This document shows, piece after piece, positions 23,800 to 51,672 of a DNA stretch of 64,000 nt; within the stretch, counting starts at the first letter, position 1, and the number at the start of each line of letters is the position of its first letter. The position numbers were made by a program, and so were the translations under genes. The DNA comes from Thermus sp. CCB_US3_UF1. GTDB taxonomy: Bacteria > Deinococcota > Deinococci > Deinococcales > Thermaceae. The stretch is taken from NCBI RefSeq assembly GCF_000236585.1, contig NC_017278.1:2046001-2110000 (forward strand). Reading direction: 5' to 3'. Below the pieces are notes generated by a model that made no database searches, had not been told where the DNA came from, and worked only from the letters and a program-made list of their open reading frames with translations.

Positions 23800-24147
23800 A
23801 TGCGCGGCCTATTGGTAAGGCTTCTTCTAAACACCTTGGCCCTTTGGCTGGTGAGCCTCCTCTACCCCGGGGTCCGCTTCGCCCCGGGGGCGGGGCTTTT
23901 GGACTACCTGGTGGCTGGGGCCATCTGGGGCCTGGCCAACGCCCTTCTCAGGCCCCTGCTCCTCCTCCTGACCCTGCCCCTAAACCTCCTCACCCTGGGG
24001 CTTTTCACCCTGGCGGTCAACGGGGCCGTGCTCTACCTGGTGGCCGAGGCCACAGCCCTCGAGGTCCAGGGCTTCCTAGGGGCCTTGGTGGGGGCCCTGA
24101 TCCTCTCCCTGGTGAGCCTTTTCCTCAACTGGCTCTTCCGCGACTAG
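23800..24147 (+). CDS. phage holin family/YvlD-like membrane protein
   Basis: A 115-residue protein with four predicted helices. Segments [45 protein letters not shown] and [12 protein letters not shown] are diagnostic of the small PF04020-type membrane family (Bacillus YvlD, linked there to envelope stress). The role in Thermus is unknown. An ATG at 23788 is in frame, but it overlaps the -10 box, so 23800 was chosen. It overlaps the convergent CBS gene by 4 nt. Confidence 0.8.
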
Positions 24148-24575
24148 CGGTTTTCGGTCACGTAGCGGGAAAGCTCGCCGATCAGGACCTCCTGCTCGCC
24201 GATGATGGCTTTGACCACATCCCCGATGGAGATCACCCCCACCACCCGCCCCCCCTCCACCACGGGCAGGTGGCGCACCCGGTGCTCGGTCATGAGGCGC
24301 ATGGCCTGGGCGAGGTCGGCCTCGGGGGGGAGGGTGAGGGGGTCGGGCGTCATCACCTCCGCCACCCGGGTGTCCTTGGAGAAGCGGCCCAGAAGGACCA
24401 GCTTGCGGGCATAATCCCGCTCGGAGAAGATGCCGAGAAGCCTCTCCCCCTCCATGACCAAAAGGGCGCCGATATCGTGCTGGGCCAGCGCCTTCAGGGC
24501 CTCCAGCACCGTGGCCTCCGGGGAGATGGCGTAGACCTCGCCCCCCTTACGCAACAGGACCTGGCGGACCGTCAT
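24144..24575 (-). CDS. tandem CBS-domain protein
   Basis: A 143-residue protein consisting of two CBS motifs: about 10-60 (SPEATVLEALKALAQHDIGALLVM...GIFSERDYARKL) and 75-128 (VMTPDPLTLPPEADLAQAMRLMTEHRVRHLPVV, then VVGVISIGDVVKAI). Such stand-alone pairs bind adenine nucleotides and act as energy or stress sensors. The ATG at 24575 fits the family; two upstream in-frame ATGs lie in the operator-like repeats. It lies downstream of the uspA gene on the same strand, with its own TATAAT. Confidence 0.9.
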   Translation of the reverse strand: MTVRQVLLRKGGEVYAISPEATVLEALKALAQHDIGALLVMEGERLLGIFSERDYARKLVLLGRFSKDTRVAEVMTPDPLTLPPEADLAQAMRLMTEHRVRHLPVVEGGRVVGVISIGDVVKAIIGEQEVLIGELSRYVTENR

Positions 24576-24587
24576 AGGACCCCCTTT

Positions 24588-24637
24588 CCCTCTTGAGGGT
24601 TTCATTATAGCAGAGGGACCCTTTGAGGGTTTCATTA
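24588..24637 (-). promoter_or_regulatory. promoter with two direct-repeat/palindromic operator-like sites
   Basis: TTGAGGGTTTCATTA (plus strand) occurs twice, at 24593-24607 and 24623-24637, exactly 30 bp apart. Each copy also sits inside a small palindrome: CCCTC-TT-GAGGG at 24588-24599 and ACCCT-TTG-AGGGT at 24618-24630. A perfect minus-strand TATAAT (24609 to 24604) overlaps the first copy, and the second falls in the -30/-45 region. This suggests a repressor binding two sites three helical turns apart. Confidence 0.6.
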
Positions 24638-24640
24638 CCC

Positions 24641-25447
24641 TCAGCGCACGGTCAGCACCGGGCCCACCGCGTGGCGCACCACGTGCTCGGCGGTGCTGCC
24701 CAGGACCAGGCGGCGCACGGGTGCCCCCAGGGCCAGGAGGTCCGAGGGGCCTTGCAGGGCGAGGAGGTGCTCCGCGGGGTCCCCGGAGAAGGCCAGGGCC
24801 TCCACGCGAAGCCCCTGGTCCCGGAGGTAGGCCTCGGCCTCGAGGGCCCAGGCCCCAGCCTGGGCCGGGTCGTCGTGCACGCTCACCACCCGTACCCCAA
24901 GCCCCAGGGGCTTGGCCAGGGAGGCCAGGGTGTGCAGGGCCCGCACCGCGCTCTCGGAGGCGTTGTAGCCCAGGATGGCCCCCTCCAGCTCCACGTAGTC
25001 CGTGGGGGCCACCAGGACCGGGGTGGGCGAGGCCCGCAGCACCCGGTCCACCGTACTCCCCAGGCCGGCAAAGCTCCCCCCATGGGCCTCCCCGCTCCGC
25101 CCCAGGACCAGGAGGTCGGCGGCGCGGGCATGGCGGAGGATCACCTCGTGGGGCAGGCCGGTTTCCATAAGGGTTTCCACGGGGATGCCCGCTTCCCTGG
25201 CGCTTTGGGCCAGCCGGCCCAAAAGGGCCTCTCCCTTGGCGGTCAGGGCCTTCTCCAGCTCCTCCCGGTAGGCGGGCAGGGGGATGGTGAGGGCCCCGAA
25301 ATCCAAAAGCTCGGGCACCCGCACCAGGCGCACATCCCGCACAAAAAGGGCCACCAGCTTGGCCGAAAGCTTGTAGCACAGCCACTCGGCCAGCACCTCC
25401 GCCCCCCGGGCCTGGGGGGAGCCGTCCGTGGCCAGGAGGATCCTCAT
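24641..25447 (-). CDS. tandem universal stress protein
   Basis: A 268-residue UspA protein with two Usp domains (about 1-140 and 145-268). Domain one begins MRILLATDGSPQARGAE and has the ATP-loop pattern VLGRSGEAHGGSFAGLGSTVDRVL. Domain two ends with LGAPVRRLVLGSTAEHVVRHAVGPVLTVR, the GxxGSxxxxVxxxxxxPV signature. A TAAGAT at 25454-25459 lies 6 nt before the ATG, suggesting leaderless expression. It may be cotranscribed with the downstream CBS gene, another nucleotide-sensing stress protein. Confidence 0.93.
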   Translation of the reverse strand: MRILLATDGSPQARGAEVLAEWLCYKLSAKLVALFVRDVRLVRVPELLDFGALTIPLPAYREELEKALTAKGEALLGRLAQSAREAGIPVETLMETGLPHEVILRHARAADLLVLGRSGEAHGGSFAGLGSTVDRVLRASPTPVLVAPTDYVELEGAILGYNASESAVRALHTLASLAKPLGLGVRVVSVHDDPAQAGAWALEAEAYLRDQGLRVEALAFSGDPAEHLLALQGPSDLLALGAPVRRLVLGSTAEHVVRHAVGPVLTVR

Positions 25448-25456
25448 GCCCCCATC

Positions 25457-26590
25457 TTACGCCCCCCGGGCCCAAGGCTCCCGCACCGCCCGGGCCAGGG
25501 CCCAGGCCGGCAGGATCAAAACCCCCAGGGCCAGGAGAACGGGCATGACCCCCAAGGCCTCGATGAGGTGCCCGATGGGGGCGTAAAAGAGGCCGGCGAA
25601 GCCCCAGGTAAAGCCCATGAGGAGGCCGGAAACCGTGGCGGTCTGGGTGGGCTCCAGCTCCTGGGCCATGGCCACGGCCACGGGGATGCCCGCGTTCATC
25701 AGGGCCCCGGTGACCGCCAGGAGGAGGAGGTACAAGGGGTTTTCTGGGGGAAAGAGGAGCAAGGCCAGGTAAAGGGGAAGCCCAAAGGCCAAGGTACCCA
25801 CCAGCACCCTCTGGCGGCCAAAGCGGTCCGAGAGGGTACCCCCCAGGAAGGCCCCCAGGGTGGCGGAAAAGCTGTAGACGGAGAGGCTGAAGGCGGTATA
25901 GGCATCGGAAAGCCCCTTTTGGGCGTACCAGTAGGGCAAGGTGGTGGAAAAGCTCATGAAGACCAGGCTCCTCAAGGTGGCCATGCCCCAGAGCCGGGCC
26001 ACATCCCCGCGGAAGACCCGGAGGAAGTCGCGGAAGCCGGCAGGCCGCCCTTGGCGGCGCACCGGGGGCAGGCGCAGCAAGGCCAAGGCGGGCAGGAGGG
26101 CCAAGGGGGTAAGCCAGATGAGGCCCTCCAGCCCCCAGGCCCCCACGGCGAAGAGGGCCACGATGGGCCCCAGGGAGAGGCCCAGATACCCCGCGGAGCC
26201 GAAAAAGGAAAGCCAGAAGCCCCGGCGGTCCCCAGGGGCGAACTCCCCCACCAGGCTGGCCCCGGAGGCGTGGAAAAGGGCCGAGCCCATGCCCGCAAGC
26301 AGGAGGACCCCAAGCAGGACCTCAAAGCGGGGCCAAAGGCCCAAGGAGCCCATGCCCAAGGCCACCAACACCGGCCCCAGGGCGGCAAGGAGCCTGCGGT
26401 CGCTGCGGTCGGCGATCAGGCCCGCCAGGGGCTGGAGGAGGCTTCCCGTGAGGGAGTAGGCGGAAACCAGAAGCCCCGCCGTGCCCAGACCCACGCCAAA
26501 GTGGGCCATGAGCTTGGGCAGAAGGGGGGTGAGGAAGTTGGAGAAGAGGTCGTTGACCGCGTGGAGCCAGGCCAAGAGAAGGGGCAGCAC
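25457..26590 (-). CDS. MFS transporter (fosmidomycin-resistance-like)
   Basis: A 377-residue protein with twelve predicted helices. The N-terminus LLLAWLHAVNDLFSNFLTPLLPKLMAHFGV resembles the Fsr branch of drug exporters (H-x-x-N/V-D-L). Loop motifs are AGLIADRSDRRLLAALG and GGTLSDRFGRQRVLVG. It starts at GTG 26590 with TAGGAT at 26597-26602, 6 nt upstream, which fits a leaderless message. The substrate is not determinable. Confidence 0.85.
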   Translation of the reverse strand: MLPLLLAWLHAVNDLFSNFLTPLLPKLMAHFGVGLGTAGLLVSAYSLTGSLLQPLAGLIADRSDRRLLAALGPVLVALGMGSLGLWPRFEVLLGVLLLAGMGSALFHASGASLVGEFAPGDRRGFWLSFFGSAGYLGLSLGPIVALFAVGAWGLEGLIWLTPLALLPALALLRLPPVRRQGRPAGFRDFLRVFRGDVARLWGMATLRSLVFMSFSTTLPYWYAQKGLSDAYTAFSLSVYSFSATLGAFLGGTLSDRFGRQRVLVGTLAFGLPLYLALLLFPPENPLYLLLLAVTGALMNAGIPVAVAMAQELEPTQTATVSGLLMGFTWGFAGLFYAPIGHLIEALGVMPVLLALGVLILPAWALARAVREPWARGA

Positions 26591-51196: not shown

Positions 51197-51361
51197 TCAC
51201 TCCCCCCAGTCCTCCGCCTCCTCGGGGGCGGCCTCGAGGCGCAAGGGGTCCAGCCCCACCACCTCCAGCTCCGCCCCGCAGTCCTCGCAGACCAGAAGTT
51301 CTCCCAGCTCCGGGTTTTCCAGGGTCAACTCCGCTCCGCACTCCGGGCAAGTGGCTACCAT
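51197..51361 (-). CDS. lysW: lysine biosynthesis carrier protein LysW
   Basis: A 54-residue acidic zinc-ribbon carrier. The cysteines are CPEC (5-8) and CEDC (24-27), giving one zinc site. The C-terminus EAEDWGE ends with the glutamate that is conjugated to aminoadipate and protects its amino group. The middle LEVVGLDPLRLE is the conserved globular core. It is too short for most ORF cutoffs but is essential to the pathway. Its start overlaps the end of the upstream double-ribbon paralogue by 7 nt. Confidence 0.96.
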   Translation of the reverse strand: MVATCPECGAELTLENPELGELLVCEDCGAELEVVGLDPLRLEAAPEEAEDWGE

Positions 51362-51672
51362 TCCTCGTCCTCCCCTTCTACCTCGCTCCAGTCAGGGACA
51401 AAGCTGAAGCCGCACTCCGGGCACTGCACCTCCTGGCCCTCGTCCTCCTCGGACACCTCAAAGGTGTACCCGCAACGGGGGCAGTCCACGAAGAAGCCCT
51501 CCAGGCCCTCCTCCGTCACCTCCACCTCCAGGGGGTCCAAGGAGGTCACCTCCAGAAAGGCCCCGCAGGCCTCGCACTCCAGCACGTCCCCCACCTCGAG
51601 GGTTTCCAGGTCCTCCGCCAGCACCACGCTGGCCTCGCCGCACACCGGACAGGTGATCTCCAGGTCCTCCAT
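51355..51672 (-). CDS. LysW paralogue with a second zinc ribbon
   Basis: A 105-residue acidic protein. Residues 1-55 align with LysW along their whole length: CPVC/CEAC match CPEC/CEDC, and LEVTSLDPLEVE matches LEVVGLDPLRLE. Residues 60-97 hold a second ribbon (CPRC, CPEC) of MJ0042-like type. The protein ends VEGEDEEW instead of the carrier's DWGE, so it lacks the terminal glutamate that bears the substrate. It sits between lysU and lysW and overlaps lysW. A carrier role is unlikely; it may be a chaperone, scaffold or regulator of the pathway. A hypothetical gene occupies the same place in other Thermus lysine clusters. Confidence 0.85.
   Translation of the reverse strand: MEDLEITCPVCGEASVVLAEDLETLEVGDVLECEACGAFLEVTSLDPLEVEVTEEGLEGFFVDCPRCGYTFEVSEEDEGQEVQCPECGFSFVPDWSEVEGEDEEW

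Follow-up and report, generated by a model that had tools for sequence, protein, structure and literature searches.

Repeat and gene order at the USP-CBS locus

The 64-kb stretch of the Thermus sp. CCB_US3_UF1 genome analyzed here (the window) contains a 15-nucleotide sequence, TTGAGGGTTTCATTA, that occurs twice in front of the gene of a two-CBS-domain protein. The question raised by this locus is what the repeat does there. The first-pass annotation had described two direct copies exactly 30 bp apart, each within its own small dyad and the first overlapped by a perfect TATAAT, and had read them as paired sites for cooperative repressor binding at the promoter of the CBS gene, with a duplicated translation start as the rival reading. 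Both copies are indeed present on the plus strand at this distance, and the TATAAT is found on the minus strand, which is that of the CBS gene, at 24609-24604. The dyads are present as well, but the two small ones differ in sequence, and the suggestion that both copies lie on the same face of the helix is only approximate, 30 bp being 2.86 turns at 10.5 bp per turn. The genes, repeat copies and dyads are as follows.

24644 to 25447, minus strand: universal stress protein (USP) gene, 268 codons, stop TGA at 24643-24641, Pfam Usp E 1.4e-26
24144 to 24575, minus strand: two-CBS-domain protein gene (CBS gene), 143 codons, start ATG at 24575-24573, Pfam CBS E 2.9e-30 in two stretches
24593 to 24607, plus strand: repeat copy 1, TTGAGGGTTTCATTA, which shares bases with the -10 and the beginning of the leader
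24623 to 24637, plus strand: repeat copy 2, TTGAGGGTTTCATTA, the extra copy, lying after the USP stop and before the promoter, in this genome only among 27 Thermus genomes
24588 to 24599, no strand: small dyad CCCTC-TT-GAGGG, occupying the position of the relatives' inner CCTAAAGG
24618 to 24630, no strand: small dyad ACCCT-TTG-AGGGT, read from the sequence
24624 to 24643, no strand: 7-bp dyad TGAGGGT-N6-ACCCTCA, a predicted stem spanning repeat copy 2 and the USP stop codon

The USP gene, which with its stop codon covers 25447-24641, lies directly upstream of the CBS gene on the minus strand, and the predicted start of the CBS protein, MTVRQ, lines up with the starts of its relatives. Between the two genes are found, in order, the extra repeat copy, an extended -10 sequence TGCTATAAT (24612-24604), the main copy, and then AAAGGGGGTCCT-ATG, which includes a Shine-Dalgarno sequence. 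No terminator-like site was found on the minus strand between USP and CBS; the single terminator-like match in the dyad is on the plus strand, whose nearest gene among those considered ends at 24147. A search of a plasmid collection gave no match, and none of the papers listed for USP-CBS or for start sites in Thermus concerned this locus.

In the window, TTGAGGGTTTCATTA is the sole 15-mer containing all four bases that is repeated without overlap at a distance of 100 bp or less. Since at least one such close pair was also present in 6 of 100 dinucleotide shuffles of the window, the length of the repeat is by itself only mildly unlikely. The same scan gave, as the next longest close repeat, a 14-base direct repeat at 51336-51423 with copies 74 bp apart. 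The whole-genome search for the 15-mer, proposed as a check in the first-pass annotation, gave two exact copies, both at the USP-CBS locus. Inexact matches in the genome numbered eight, all with 3 mismatches, and a reversed control pattern also gave 8. With at most one mismatch, TTGAGGGTTTCATTA was absent from the 26 other Thermus genomes of the 27 examined.

Comparison set

A CBS ortholog was found in 23 of the 27 Thermus genomes (77-100% identity in the best piece), and 22 distinct sequences upstream of the CBS gene, referred to here as leaders, were compared, that of the window strain included. L012 and L042/L043/L069 are identical; L042 (G041) was accordingly not counted as a separate leader. 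The upstream sequences of L069 (T. brockianus), L070 (T. arciformis) and L078 (Thermus sp. JCM 17653) exactly match three of the 22 leaders. A USP gene was found upstream of CBS at all 22 loci used to build a USP tree, some nodes of which are weakly supported. For ten further CBS loci, nine from outside Thermus and one a Thermus paralogue, there was no USP match in the fetched flank, and no comparable element was seen by eye.

A conserved extended -10 promoter

The copy at 24593-24607 is best explained as part of a conserved promoter and leader of the CBS gene, whose core element is the following.

24604 to 24612, minus strand: extended -10 TGCTATAAT of the CBS gene, TGN-TATAAT kept in the aligned leaders, no -35 seen

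TATAAT is exact in 20 of the 22 aligned leaders and TGN-TATAAT in 19; the exceptions are L025 (CATAAT), L026 (which lacks the TG) and L029 (GATACT). This genus-wide conservation supports the earlier assignment of a CBS-gene promoter at the repeat. The spacer upstream of the -10 has low information from -17 to -4 (0.02-0.98 bits per position over the 22 leaders), and no sigma-70 -35/-10 pair was found in 24100-25600. Extended -10 promoters of the sigma-A type carry TGN-TATAAT and do without a recognizable -35. The CBS promoter resembles them in both respects; unlike the usual extended -10 promoter, however, it has a C-rich stretch between the -10 and the start that would double as a stem arm. 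A typical leader reads TGGTATAATG-AACCCC-TAAAGGAAA-GGGGGTT-CT-ATG. The block made up of the promoter and CCCCTAAAGG has an exact match in 18 of the 27 genomes, one in each and at the USP-CBS locus, and all matches to it outside this locus have 3 mismatches.

The extra copy and the translation start

In the window strain, 31 bases separate the USP stop from the -10 hexamer. The corresponding spacer is 11-21 bases long in the 21 relatives, measuring 16-17 in 19 of these, 21 in L018 and 11 in L029. The window strain thus has an excess of about 14-15 bases in front of the -10. Since this is approximately one repeat unit, the simplest account of the copy at 24623-24637 is a partial duplication within the lineage of this strain. 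None of the other 21 leaders has the upstream copy, and AAACCCTCAA, which both copies share, is likewise missing from all 21 of those upstream sequences. This distribution does not favor cooperative paired repressor sites. The dyads could still bind a dimeric repressor as its operators, with the -10 and the start site lying under the bound protein and a second, cooperative site gained by this strain; they do overlap the promoter, the 15-mer is repeated exactly at 30 bp, and a GAGGG/CCCT dyad occurs in both copies. However, we consider such operators improbable. The pair is present in only one of 27 Thermus genomes, exact copies of the 15-mer are confined to the USP-CBS locus so that no regulon is seen in the genome, and 30 bp is not a whole number of helical turns. 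Furthermore, the half-sites of the promoter-side dyad vary between species both in sequence and in their distance from each other (9 to 12 bases).

The same DNA can be read as encoding MKPS twice in frame with the CBS protein, and translation from one of these codons was the other explanation offered in the first-pass annotation. Both MKPS readings exist and continue without a stop to the CBS start in the window strain, and the ATG of TATAATG is open to that start in L018 as well. These are, however, the only two of the 22 leaders in which it is open: translation from this ATG would meet a stop after three codons in 18 leaders, and the ATG itself is missing in two (L026 and L029). Therefore, the CBS start is most likely the ATG behind the Shine-Dalgarno sequence (MTVRQ). 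With a strong Shine-Dalgarno sequence preceding that ATG, use of a duplicated upstream start is hardly to be expected. The three-codon frame M-x-P-stop at the -10 of the 18 leaders, all from relatives (e.g. L016 and L023), is probably a by-product of the sequence TATAATG...CCCCTAA.

Predicted pairing between the bases after the -10 and the Shine-Dalgarno sequence

In the relatives, GAACCCC, which directly follows the -10, is able to pair with the Shine-Dalgarno sequence of the CBS gene, GGGGGTTC. The two arms of this stem lie at the following positions.

24597 to 24603, minus strand: position of the left stem arm, GAACCCC being commonest in relatives; GAAACCC, poorly matched, in the window strain
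24577 to 24587, minus strand: Shine-Dalgarno sequence and right stem arm AAAGGGGGTCC, from the sequence and the aligned leaders

Folded alone at 37 C, the leaders of the 21 relatives give -8.6 to -16.1 kcal/mol and that of the window strain -7.6, with at most 8 pairs. Paired changes in the two arms are seen as GGACCCC/GGGGGTCC in L011 and L012, GGGCCCC/GGGGGGCTC in L015, GACCCCC/GGGGGGTC in L017 and CTTCCCC/GGGGGAGG in L026. All three outer pairs are present in one fixed register in 11 of the 22 leaders and are incomplete in L009, L014, L016, L017, L018, L019, L020, L025, L027, L029 and L060; in L017 and L025 the third outer cell falls inside the -10 itself. Because the pairing register shifts with the length of the G run, covariation of the arms was examined by arm swaps and by a count in a defined register.

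When the arms were permuted among 20 leaders, one of each pair identical after the -10 being left out (L012 and L028), native stems averaged -10.93 kcal/mol and permuted ones -9.66, and 9 of 20,000 permutations were as good as the native set. This number was 7 without L009, 11 without L009 and L018, and 31 when one leader was taken for each distinct left arm (12 leaders), again out of 20,000. In the outer stem, 51 of 66 cells hold standard pairs, compared with 41.7 +/- 2.9 in permutations (77 of 20,000 as high) and 40.4 +/- 5.6 in simulations along the USP tree (48 of 2,000 as high, p about 0.02). Of the 2,000 simulations, 29 were as high without L018 and 9 without L018 and L009. Both arms differ in 191 pairs of leaders, and these pairs are not independent of one another; swapping the arms within them hurt the stem in 147 cases and helped it in 23. 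For nine hand-chosen, tree-independent sister pairs, the swap hurt in four (in one by 0.1), helped in three and was neutral in two. The permutation and tree-aware comparisons give moderate support to a concerted change of the two arms, the sister pairs being divided. Among the leaders the arms lie 9 to 12 bases apart, a variation that would suit an RNA structure better than a protein dimer on DNA.

It should be noted that G-rich ribosome-binding sequences fold readily in this DNA. Among 166 matches in the window to a Shine-Dalgarno sequence plus start, some of which overlap and many of which are not real genes, 55 fold at -10 kcal/mol or below, compared with 16 of the 22 CBS leaders. Shuffled upstream sequence pairs nearly as well (see below), so that pairing itself is cheap at 69% G+C. 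Selection on the stem is argued for, moderately, only by the in-step changes of its arms.

Predicted access to the Shine-Dalgarno sequence

Access to the Shine-Dalgarno sequence was predicted for a read-through RNA from USP and for an RNA from the CBS gene's own promoter, the start of the latter being set at the 8th base after the -10. Predicted access is lower in the read-through RNA in all 22 leaders. The means for read-through and own-promoter RNA are 0.37 and 0.61 at 37 C and 0.39 and 0.76 at 70 C; the value averages three loop A residues with the G run, which places a floor near 0.37 under most of the read-through values. Shuffled upstream sequence also buries the G-rich Shine-Dalgarno sequence, with means of 0.45 (37 C) and 0.51 (70 C), and from 2 to 52 of 60 shuffles per species were as low as the native sequence at 37 C (1 to 44 at 70 C). 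When the fold took in less of the coding region, the order at 37 C was reversed in L018 (0.45 in read-through and 0.17-0.20 in own-promoter RNA) and there was no difference in L024.

The window strain has the weakest local stem of the set (-6.4 in the arm-swap comparison). In its read-through RNA the G run is predicted to pair mostly with bases preceding the -10 (0.80 at 37 C and 0.64 at 70 C) rather than with the old left arm, and the minimum-energy fold places the partner as follows.

24612 to 24621, minus strand: GGGTCCCTCT, predicted partner of the Shine-Dalgarno sequence in read-through RNA, just downstream of the extra copy

This segment is not new to the window strain, since its core, GGGTCCCT, is also present in L012. 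In the own-promoter RNA, the Shine-Dalgarno G run is predicted to pair with the coding region, so that the predicted gain in access is small in CCB_US3_UF1: the Shine-Dalgarno sequence is unpaired at 0.20 in own-promoter and 0.04 in read-through RNA at 37 C, and at 0.28-0.29 and 0.19, respectively, at 70 C.

A possible insulation from read-through transcripts

These features can be combined into a genus-wide element in which an extended -10 lies just after the USP stop and a short inverted repeat comes directly behind it, the CBS Shine-Dalgarno sequence forming the right half of that repeat. An RNA reading through from USP would hold both halves and could fold the CBS ribosome site into a stem. 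An RNA from the CBS promoter would be expected to start within the left half or past it, some 7-9 bases downstream of the -10, and would form an incomplete stem; since the left arm follows the -10 without a gap, most of it should be missing from such an RNA. Translation of CBS would then depend on the promoter used, and transcripts entering from the stress gene upstream would not switch CBS on.

Comparable arrangements are known. In IS10 fold-back inhibition and in the early RNA of phage T4 lysozyme, external transcripts hide the ribosome site and an internal promoter gives RNA without the inhibitory arm. Those cases belong to a mobile element and a phage, whereas CBS is a chromosomal gene beside a stress gene. 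A closer likeness is offered by sigG of Bacillus subtilis as described in PMC5942855: translation of read-through RNA from spoIIGA-sigE is proposed there to be blocked by a large hairpin, which is not formed by the RNA that starts at the sigG promoter. sigG and CBS are alike in lying behind another operon, in having a promoter of their own and in a proposed hairpin that would block translation of read-through RNA. They differ in that the sigG hairpin has at least 20 pairs, whereas the CBS stem has at most 8 and its left arm follows directly after the -10. The likeness would be one of mechanism, not of descent, and its CBS side is a prediction.

Insulation from read-through is the best mechanism on offer for this locus, although we hold it to be slightly short of probable and only somewhat ahead of a plain promoter. 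As an ordinary internal promoter, the element would consist of a conserved extended -10, a C-rich stretch and a G-rich Shine-Dalgarno sequence; the stem would be a by-product of composition and the second copy a neutral duplication. This is a quite possible reading. Shuffled sequences, and Shine-Dalgarno matches elsewhere in the window, come close to the leaders in folding, as it would predict, and the sister pairs are divided, with four for the stem, three against and two neutral. However, the outer bases of the stem pair above expectation both in the permutations and in the tree-aware null, and a by-product of composition would not lead one to expect this. Alternatively, the stem might belong to the main CBS transcript, as a heat-opened RNA thermometer or a protein-bound leader. 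The predicted stem hides the Shine-Dalgarno sequence, and it weakens from 37 to 65 C; nevertheless, this is very unlikely, given that a start at the place expected from the -10 would leave most of the left arm untranscribed and that an Rfam covariance-model search of 24000-25600 gave no match at E up to 1.

In its widest form, the insulation reading would make the element a device of the genus Thermus in which the -10 abuts the left arm of a stem hiding the ribosome site of the very gene that it drives, so that promoter choice, and not only the amount of RNA, would decide translation; in CCB_US3_UF1 the local stem would have decayed and GGGTCCCTCT taken over its pairing. We regard this wider form as rather doubtful. 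If true, insulation would be a compact, terminator-free way of uncoupling a downstream gene from a stress gene in a thermophile, and the 22 natural variants would make it easy to test. If not, the locus would hold a plain conserved promoter and a strain-specific duplication.

Distribution of the CBS gene in Thermus

A full-length CBS ortholog was not found in four of the 27 Thermus genomes (G002, G011, G015 and G019), and for this reason the gene looks dispensable in Thermus. In G011 (L030) and G015 (L032) the CBS locus is interrupted near contig ends, in G019 (L031) the CBS gene is not located behind USP, and in G002 (L033/L062) the match is a CBS remnant of 49 codons. In G016 (L061) and G042 (L060) the CBS match is split into two pieces that overlap and differ in frame, suggesting either a frameshift or an error in sequencing.
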